From the NCBI GenBank assembly GCA_017999615.1, contig JAGNLM010000011.1:1-58044 (forward strand): a stretch of DNA of 58,044 nucleotides. Direction: 5' to 3'. The position numbers and the translations under genes are program-made. This document shows positions 26,613-29,633 of the stretch, piece after piece. Under the pieces are notes generated by a model. It saw only the letters and a list, made by a program, of their open reading frames with translations. It was not told the DNA's origin and did no database searches. How positions within the stretch are numbered: position 1 is the stretch's first letter; every line of letters starts with the position of its first letter. Source of the DNA: Gammaproteobacteria bacterium. Its GTDB lineage: Bacteria; Pseudomonadota; Gammaproteobacteria; JAABTG01.

Positions 26613-27011
26613 TCAGAGGGTGGCCCGGCCCGGCTGCACGAACGCCCGCTCGTGGATCTCCTGGCAGGTTACGCAGCGGGTGGCCGTCGGCTCGGTGAGC
26701 AGGCGCTCGTAGCCGATGCGGGTCCCGCAGTCGACACAGGTGCCGTAGGTGCCCGTGCGCAGCCGGAGCAACGCGGCCTCGGTTTCCCGTATCGCGTCGA
26801 TGTGCAGGTCCACCACCGCGAGGCCCACGTCCACCAGCAGGTCCGCGACGGACTCGTCACCCGGGTCGTGCACGCGCCCGGCGAGGTCCAGGAAACCCTC
26901 GCTGTCCGCCGCCAGCAGCTCGCGGCGCACCTCCGCCCGCAGTTTCTCGTAGCGCTGCTCCAGCCGCTGCTTCAGGCTGGCCAGCCGTTCGCCAGACAGG
27001 TCGCTCGCCAT
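26613..27011 (-). CDS. TraR/DksA-family zinc-finger transcription factor
   Basis: A 132-residue protein of the DksA/TraR family, whose members enter the RNA polymerase secondary channel. An N-terminal helical coiled-coil (residues 8-85) has the acidic DPGDESVAD stretch. The C4 zinc finger is C92-x2-C95 and C113-x2-C116 (CVDCG, CVTCQ), followed by a basic C-terminus. It starts 13 bp after the rpoH stop, so the two probably share a transcript. It is shorter than E. coli DksA (151) and may be a paralogue rather than the housekeeping DksA. Confidence 0.88.
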   Translation of the reverse strand: MASDLSGERLASLKQRLEQRYEKLRAEVRRELLAADSEGFLDLAGRVHDPGDESVADLLVDVGLAVVDLHIDAIRETEAALLRLRTGTYGTCVDCGTRIGYERLLTEPTATRCVTCQEIHERAFVQPGRATL

Positions 27012-27024
27012 GGGGCTTCTCTCC

Positions 27025-27876
<852 letters not shown>

Positions 27877-27909
27877 CGCGTCCCTGTCCCCATCGAGAAG
27901 TCTGGAACA

Positions 27910-27939
27910 AATTTAGCAGTCACTGCTTTAGAGTGCCAG
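27910..27939 (-). promoter_or_regulatory. Candidate rpoH promoter
   Basis: Reading leftward, -35 CTGGCA (plus-strand 27934-27939), an 18 bp gap and a -10 TAAATT (27910-27915) preceded by TGC (extended -10 like). The start would be near 27903, about 27 bases before the rpoH ATG. Confidence 0.45.
27913..27939. promoter_or_regulatory. CIRCE-like inverted repeat upstream of rpoH
   Basis: TTAGCAGTC (27913-27921), a 9 bp spacer and GAGTGCCAG (27931-27939) match the HrcA operator TTAGCACTC-N9-GAGTGCTAA at 8/9 and 7/9 positions with exact spacing. It spans the -35 to -10 gap of the candidate promoter. Confidence 0.6.
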
Positions 27940-27975
27940 GTCCCCCGGGAGTTTCGCCCCCCGGGGGGCGTCCCG

Positions 27976-28962
27976 TCAGGGCTTGACCGCGCGCAGGTAG
28001 CGGCTCACGGCGAGCCAGGCGCCGAGCAGCCCGAGGAGCCCTCCCCCGAGCACGAGCGCCGCGCCCACGCCGGCCCCCATTCCCTGCAGGCGGAAGTCGC
28101 TGCCGTACAGCGCCGCGAGGCGGGCCACGGGCCCTCCGAGGGCAAGCCCGATGGCCCCGAGGCAGAGCCAGGCGGCGATGCCGCCCAGTACCCCGTACCA
28201 GAGGCCGGTGTAGAGGAAGGGCCGGCGCACGAAGGCGTCCGTCGCCCCGAAGAGCTTGCTGATCTCGATCTCGTCCCGCCGCCCCTGGATGGTCATTCGG
28301 GTGGTGTTCGCGATCACGAGGAGGACCGCGAGCGCGAGCGCCCCCGCGAGTACCGCCGCGGTGCGCTCCCCCAGCCCCGCGGTGGCTTGCAGGCGGCGGA
28401 CCCACTCGAGGTCGAACTGGGCGCCGTCCGCCTCCGGCAGCGCGGCGAGACGGTCCACGAGCGCCCCGGGGGCTCCTGGAGCCCCGGGAGGCCCGGGGCT
28501 CGGCCCCGGGCGGGGCTGGACCAGCAGCACGGCCGGGAGCGGGTTGGAGTCCAGGCTGTCCACCAGCTCGCCCATGCCGGAGAAGGTGCGGTACTCGGCG
28601 AGGGCCTCGGCGCGGGTGAGCACGCGGACCGCGCCCACCTCGGGCCAGCGGGACACCGTGTCGCCCAGGGCCACCGCCTTGCGGTCGTCCACCTCGGTCT
28701 TCAGGAAGACCGACACCTGGGTGGAGCGGTCCCAGGCGGCCATCACCGCGCGCAGGTTCTCTACCGAGACGTGGAGCGAGGCCGGCAGGGCCAGCGCGAT
28801 CCCGATGAGCAGCGTCGTCATCGAGGTGGCCACGGGGGTCCGGGTCAGCTGCCCGAGGCTCGAGACCGCCACCTGGGCGTGCCGGGTCAGCCAGGCGGAG
28901 AAGTGCTCCACCAGACCCCGGGCCGGCGCCCGGGCGCGCGCGGGGCGTGCCCGGCGGGTCAC
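27976..28962 (-). CDS. ftsX: Cell division protein FtsX
   Basis: A 328-residue inner-membrane protein that with FtsE links septal ring activity to peptidoglycan amidase control. It has a cytoplasmic N-terminus, TM1 near residues 45-62, a periplasmic domain to about 195, and three more helices. IQGRRDEIEISKLFGATDAF follows TM2 and is the family signature. Residues 150-167 are a Pro/Gly-rich insertion (GPPGAPGAPG) not usual in FtsX. The GTG start overlaps the ftsE stop as GTGA. Confidence 0.94.
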   Translation of the reverse strand: MTRRARPARARAPARGLVEHFSAWLTRHAQVAVSSLGQLTRTPVATSMTTLLIGIALALPASLHVSVENLRAVMAAWDRSTQVSVFLKTEVDDRKAVALGDTVSRWPEVGAVRVLTRAEALAEYRTFSGMGELVDSLDSNPLPAVLLVQPRPGPSPGPPGAPGAPGALVDRLAALPEADGAQFDLEWVRRLQATAGLGERTAAVLAGALALAVLLVIANTTRMTIQGRRDEIEISKLFGATDAFVRRPFLYTGLWYGVLGGIAAWLCLGAIGLALGGPVARLAALYGSDFRLQGMGAGVGAALVLGGGLLGLLGAWLAVSRYLRAVKP

Positions 28963-29633
28963 GGCAGCGGGCGCCCGGAGTCCGTCGCCAGGCGCCCGGA
29001 CTGCAGCGACAGGATGCGCTTGCCCATCTGGCGGATCAGGTCCAGGTGATGGCTCGCGATGAGGACGGTGACCCCGACCTGCTGGAAGCGCTCGAAGAGG
29101 CGCATGACCTCGCGCGAGAGGTCGGGGTCGAGGTTGCCCGTGGGCTCGTCGGCGAGCAGGACCGCAGGCCGGTTCACCACAGCGCGTGCGATGCCGACCC
29201 GCTGCTGCTCCCCGCCGGAGAGCGACTCGGGCAGGTGACGCTCCTTGCCCAGGAGCCCCACGTGGTCCAGGGCCGCGCGCACCCGGCGTCCGGTCTCCCG
29301 ATGGCTGTAGCCCGCGATCACCAGCGGCAGGGCCACGTTGTCGAAGACGGTGCGGTCCAGCAGCAGCCGGTGGTCCTGGAAGGTGATCCCGACCCTGCGC
29401 CGGTAGTAGGGCACGCGGCGGGGCGCGAGCTTGCCGAGGTTCTGTCCCCCCACGATCACCTGCCCCTGGGTGCTGCGCTCGATGAGGCCCACGAGCCGCA
29501 ACAGCGTGCTCTTGCCTGCACCCGAGTGCCCCGTCACGAAAACCATCTCCCCGGCGTCCACGTGCAGGCTCACGTGGGACAGGGCCTGGTGACCGTTGGG
29601 GTAGCTCTTGCTGACGTCGTCGAAGGTGATCAC
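28959..29633 (-). CDS. ftsE: Cell division ATP-binding protein FtsE
   Basis: A 224-residue ABC ATPase partner of FtsX; E. coli FtsE is 222. Walker A is GHSGAGKS (35-42), the signature is LSGGEQ (138-143), and Walker B is [30 protein letters not shown] is the typical start. It is transcribed with ftsY (15 bp upstream) and ftsX (4 bp overlap). Confidence 0.96.

Follow-up and report, generated by a model that had tools for sequence, protein, structure and literature searches.

HrcA with its operator CIRCE and the sigma factor sigma-32 are commonly told as two separate heat-shock strategies, and Escherichia coli serves as the model for the Gammaproteobacteria. HrcA/CIRCE control of groESL and of hrcA-grpE-dnaK is of a known kind, and in Geobacter sulfurreducens a perfect CIRCE element is also predicted upstream of rpoH, at -51, in the part of the source available to us (PMC545781). 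The link between HrcA and rpoH is therefore itself of a known kind, since it is already in print for Geobacter, which resembles the locus described here in having CIRCE before rpoH in a bacterium with hrcA. It is however one deltaproteobacterium, and the available part of that source describes no overlap with a sigma-E or a sigma-70 promoter (PMC545781). The rpoH gene of Pseudomonas aeruginosa has a promoter P3 driven by AlgU/sigma-E and a promoter P4 driven by RpoD, as given in the accessible part of the report (PMC13104619). Upstream of E. coli K-12 rpoH the sigma-E promoter P3 reads TGAACTT-N16-TCTGA, with the same N16 spacing as in CIRCE-bearing relatives of the genome studied here, and no CIRCE was found in the 244 bp upstream of that gene (best 8 mismatches). 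The two Pseudomonas rows of our comparison (L073 and L082) lack CIRCE at rpoH, and their genomes gave no hrcA match. Because E. coli and P. aeruginosa both have it, the sigma-E promoter is common to genomes with and without CIRCE. No account of a sigma-E/CIRCE composite at rpoH was found in the titles or abstract openings of the literature searched. Within the reach of these searches, the gammaproteobacterial layout with interlocked sigma-E, CIRCE and sigma-70 elements is new. Sites at gammaproteobacterial rpoH genes may be listed in a 2003 study by Permina and Gelfand, which reportedly deals with HrcA regulons in beta-, gamma- and epsilonproteobacteria.

The window, which is the whole stretch of DNA that was analysed (58,044 nucleotides), contains rpoH next to a gene taken as ftsX, in an order like that annotated in E. 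coli. The gap between the two genes is 99 bp and holds a CIRCE element 36 bp upstream of rpoH (Table 1). The + strand at 27913-27939 is TTAGCAGTC-N9-GAGTGCCAG, which differs at three positions from the CIRCE consensus TTAGCACTC-N9-GAGTGCTAA and has a spacer of exactly 9 bp; in the reading direction of rpoH the element is CTGGCACTC-TAAAGCAGT-GACTGCTAA. This pattern match bears out the 15 of 18 arm positions and the exact 9 bp spacing given in the earlier note, with the correction that the start proposed there, 27910, is 3 bp too early, the three additional bases being the end of a putative -10. That note also placed CIRCE between a -35 and a -10. The description is imprecise in that promoter elements appear to lie within the arms themselves: in the window, the sigma-E -10 and the two hexamers of a sigma-70 promoter seem to be provided by CIRCE. 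We give a probability of roughly 0.8 to the reading that CIRCE is here a genuine HrcA operator that forms part of the rpoH promoter, overlying a sigma-E and a probable sigma-70 promoter, and the sequence comparisons support the proposal that rpoH would be under HrcA repression.

Table 1. Positions of the genes and of the putative control elements around the start of rpoH in the window.
Feature	Coordinates	Strand	Basis
rpoH, sigma-32, 283 aa	27025..27876	-	NCBIfam rpoH_proteo TIGR02392, 407 bits (cut-off 323)
Putative extended -10 TGC-TAAATT (4/6), second arm plus three bases	27910..27918	-	T30 in 64/69 rpoH sites
CIRCE element (putative HrcA operator)	27913..27939	-	15/18 arm bases
Putative sigma-E -10 TCTAA, 16 bp after the -35	27928..27932	-	last two bases of the first arm plus spacer
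Putative sigma-70 -35 CTGGCA (4/6), in the first CIRCE arm	27934..27939	-	by eye
Putative sigma-E -35 GAAACTC, 5/7 of GGAACTT	27949..27955	-	conserved column in 69 sites; weak in the window
Upstream gene, taken as ftsX	27976..28962	-	open reading frame; position and resemblance of gene order to E. coli

At the same stringency no CIRCE match was obtained in 100 shuffles of the window, and in a scan of the whole assembly (2,470,065 bases) the site before rpoH was the only match with three mismatches or fewer; hrcA of the same genome thus has no CIRCE within this limit. The lone genomic match is weak evidence taken alone, because 56 genomes together had 22 forward matches (a sum made by hand) to a reversed control pattern, or about 0.4 per genome at three mismatches. 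All 27 bases of CIRCE are identical in the sister species, compared with 42 of the 51 bp just upstream. Identity is also complete in the 33 bp from the putative -10 to the ATG (33/33) and nearly so in the first 60 bp of rpoH (59/60), and the contrast in conservation is therefore confined to the upstream flank. That flank includes a GC-rich palindrome, CGCCCCCCGGGGGGCG, within 27940-27975 between ftsX and the rpoH promoter; it is partly changed in the sister species and is not a typical terminator, because no T tract follows it. Two other candidates were rejected. A known RNA thermometer was not supported, as an Rfam scan of 27000-29000 gave no family at E up to 1, and a sigma-54 site read by eye over TGGCAC has a GG-GC spacing one base short of the consensus.

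The presence of hrcA in the genome, on which the earlier note had made its proposal depend, was confirmed. The gene lies on contig 15 (TIGR00331, 325.9 bits against a cut-off of 197.2; PF01628, E 3.5e-66) and adjoins genes read by eye as grpE and dnaK. The genome also has rpoE (TIGR02939, 320.5 bits, cut-off 236.15). Neither GroES nor GroEL was found in the assembly (G000, rated 98.98% complete, in which the window is contig 11), and a search there for the DNA of the sister's groE locus gave no more than five short matches, each 71 bases long or less. Because the sister species has groES, with a one-mismatch CIRCE upstream, groESL is probably missing through an assembly gap.

The repeat was also found to be conserved upstream of rpoH in relatives, the other point on which the proposal had been made to hang. 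The comparison comprised 134 rpoH rows, of which 80 were named rpoH loci and 54 came from 53 of 56 relative genomes, the window's own included; in G022, G032 and G043 no rpoH match was convincing, and the rows do not include them. Two genomes contribute two rpoH copies each (L005 and L010; the two G036 rows). CIRCE with four mismatches or fewer stands upstream of rpoH in 72 of the 134 rows, 37 of them with perfect 18/18 arms. One of the remaining 62 rows has five mismatches to CIRCE and the rest have at least six. Among the relative genomes, the named loci apart, CIRCE recurs at rpoH in 31 family codes, counted by hand.

Sigma-E promoters have the consensus GGAACTT-N16-TCNNA. When the 69 unique rpoH sites (repeats removed, window and sister counted once) were aligned on CIRCE, three conserved features were found outside the arms: GGAACTT, an A at spacer position 12 (A12) and a T at position 30 (T30). 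GGAACTT starts 15 bp before CIRCE and is matched in at least five of seven bases at exactly this offset in 39/69 sites, whereas one base to either side the figures are 7/69 and 5/69. The TC of the sigma-E -10 coincides with CIRCE positions 8-9. A12 is found in 51/69 sites, namely in 44 of 48 with a sigma-E -35 and in 7 of 21 without (p 1.4e-6, the position-wise tests treating sites as independent and kinship being handled only in the tree simulation of hrcA and CIRCE described below). The control positions 13 and 15 show no such link to the sigma-E -35, so that A12 seems to be there for sigma-E and not for HrcA. A scan for the sigma-E pattern made without reference to CIRCE picked up 38 of the 72 CIRCE rows (shuffle mean 1.0), with 33 of the 38 patterns in register with CIRCE. 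Of the 60 rows that lack CIRCE it picked up 24 (shuffle mean 1.45).

The consensus of a sigma-70 promoter with an extended -10 is TGN-TATAAT, with a -35 at suitable spacing. T30, three bases after CIRCE, completes the extended -10 TGC-TAANNT, for which the first arm (TTGGCA or TTAGCA) can act as a -35 with 18 bp of spacing. T30 is present in 64/69 rpoH sites and in 0/14 groE sites (p 4e-12), and its occurrence does not depend on the sigma-E -35. The arms are moreover asymmetric: position 3 is off consensus in 24/69 sites, 23 of these to G, and the mirror position 25 in two. A G at position 3 would improve a -35. The operator at rpoH is the same as that of the groESL type, and groES of relatives carries CIRCE too, but the surroundings differ. 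The 14 unique groE sites are directly preceded by CCCCTATNA, which resembles a sigma-32 -10, and are without T30, while CIRCE at rpoH is interlocked with sigma-E-like and sigma-70-like elements. The spacers of groE sites often continue the palindrome (ACC...GGT), unlike those of rpoH sites.

These elements were joined in one composite pattern, GGAACTT-N9-TTRGCACTC-NNA-N6-GAGTGCTAA-NNT, with three mismatches or fewer allowed. In an even sample of 369 genomes of the class the composite was found in 152 (113/271 genera), and its reversed control gave no match in the same genomes. The gene that it faces was read for 30 loci only: 27 have an RpoH box downstream and two more, L197 and L198, encode RpoH by translation, which accounts for all but L193. 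The copy in the window is GAAACTC-N9-CTGGCACTC-TAA-N6-GACTGCTAA-ATT, and because its elements sum to four mismatches the window's genome falls outside the 152. It is among the weaker copies, with three mismatches in CIRCE, 5/7 in the sigma-E -35 and 4/6 in each of the sigma-70 hexamers, CTGGCA and TGC-TAAATT, which are spaced 18 bp. A consensus promoter scan of the window reported no promoter, and neither of these two hexamers.

The best surviving alternative, although an unlikely one, is that CIRCE is a working HrcA operator but that the promoter overlap has decayed in the window's genome. Transcription of rpoH would then come mainly from read-through of ftsX or from another promoter not recognised in this analysis, with HrcA acting as a roadblock or on just one of the promoters. 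The weak sigma-E -35 (GAAACTC) and sigma-70 hexamers and the empty promoter scan are consistent with this alternative, as is the finding that, by eye, no T-tailed terminator lies between ftsX and rpoH in the reading direction. What argues for an intact overlap is that A12 and T30, whose role would be in the promoters and not in CIRCE, have been retained in the window and in the sister species alike.

The presence of CIRCE at rpoH tracks hrcA. Of the 132 rows in a table, 76 have hrcA and 56 do not, and CIRCE stands at rpoH in 64 of the former and in 8 of the latter; L040 and L060 were dropped from the table and from the tree simulation because of too little upstream DNA, and the table keeps two same-genome pairs (L018 and G012; L036 and G009). 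A stricter independent-pairs test on supported branches had only three or four supported pairs, too few to decide, and a simulation was therefore run in which CIRCE evolved independently of hrcA on the tree of 133 RpoH proteins; this simulation also leaves out G037, the rpoH match of which is in two pieces. The observed association (phi 0.71) was reached in none of 5000 simulations (maximum 0.66). The exceptions are 12 of the 76 rows with hrcA, which lack CIRCE, and 8 of the 56 rows without hrcA, which have it; some of these eight are incomplete genomes, for example G009 (62%), yet G020 (97% complete) is one of them too. CIRCE stands before a heat-shock gene and is kept along with hrcA in relatives.

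Another explanation would be that the repeat is a promoter, or the site of some other factor, that merely resembles CIRCE, HrcA being uninvolved. Parts of the repeat do match promoter elements, and the eight rows that carry it without a detected hrcA would fit as well. The tracking of hrcA speaks against this explanation, and so do the 37 perfect palindromes among the 72 sites, which are more than promoters need. Nor is CIRCE needed for the sigma-E promoter, because 24 of the 60 rows without CIRCE keep the sigma-E pattern, and we regard a mere look-alike as very improbable. A chance match, which the rate of control matches per genome might seem to allow, is contradicted by the conservation of the site, that is by its position within the 99-bp ftsX-rpoH gap, its identity in the sister species and its recurrence at rpoH in many families, and its probability is close to nil.

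Some rows show departures of other kinds. Perfect CIRCE elements are found at rpoH in L050 (Alishewanella agri) and L069 (Rheinheimera pleomorphica), where hrcA scored 138 and 129 bits compared with about 200-235 in others, while many other Alteromonadales rows have neither CIRCE at rpoH nor hrcA; the hrcA/CIRCE of these two was possibly acquired separately. Two genomes have two rpoH copies that differ. In G058 the L010 copy has a one-mismatch CIRCE and the L005 copy a decayed one (five mismatches), and in G036 the L092 copy has a one-mismatch CIRCE and the L169 copy none, as if one copy had escaped HrcA. The rows L016 and L030 (both Nitrococcus), L013 and L070 have hrcA and an rpoH without CIRCE, and L013, L016 and L030 keep the full sigma-E pattern (10/10).

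With CIRCE read as an HrcA operator within the rpoH promoter, a control circuit can be proposed. The activity of HrcA depends on GroE. Spare GroE would keep HrcA active at normal temperature, and HrcA bound to CIRCE would cover the sigma-E -10 and both sigma-70 hexamers, shutting out RNA polymerase with either sigma factor. Because HrcA would lie over elements of both promoters, one repressor could close both. Heat or unfolding stress would occupy GroE, HrcA would lose its activity, and the released rpoH gene would be transcribed with sigma-70 and, when the envelope is stressed, also with sigma-E. New sigma-32 would then lead to more chaperones, GroE would recover and HrcA would close rpoH again. 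Since the activity of HrcA depends on GroE, transcription of rpoH would follow the free chaperonin capacity, a feedback that would add to the known controls of sigma-32. The earlier note made no link to sigma-E, the promoter of which is part of the layout proposed here.

For the Gammaproteobacteria that keep HrcA a more general reading has, in our judgement, about an even chance of being right. The rpoH promoter of these bacteria would be compact and composite, one CIRCE lending parts to a sigma-E as well as to a sigma-70 promoter, and HrcA would gate either route to sigma-32. This arrangement would be older than that of E. coli, in which the control of translation and stability would be what remained after the loss of HrcA. 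Such a composite would join the chaperonin-sensing HrcA, the envelope-sensing sigma-E and the housekeeping sigma-70 on about 46 bp before the master regulator. The prediction is that any cultured species carrying the site controls sigma-32 transcriptionally, gated by GroE; E. coli would then have a reduced form of the system.
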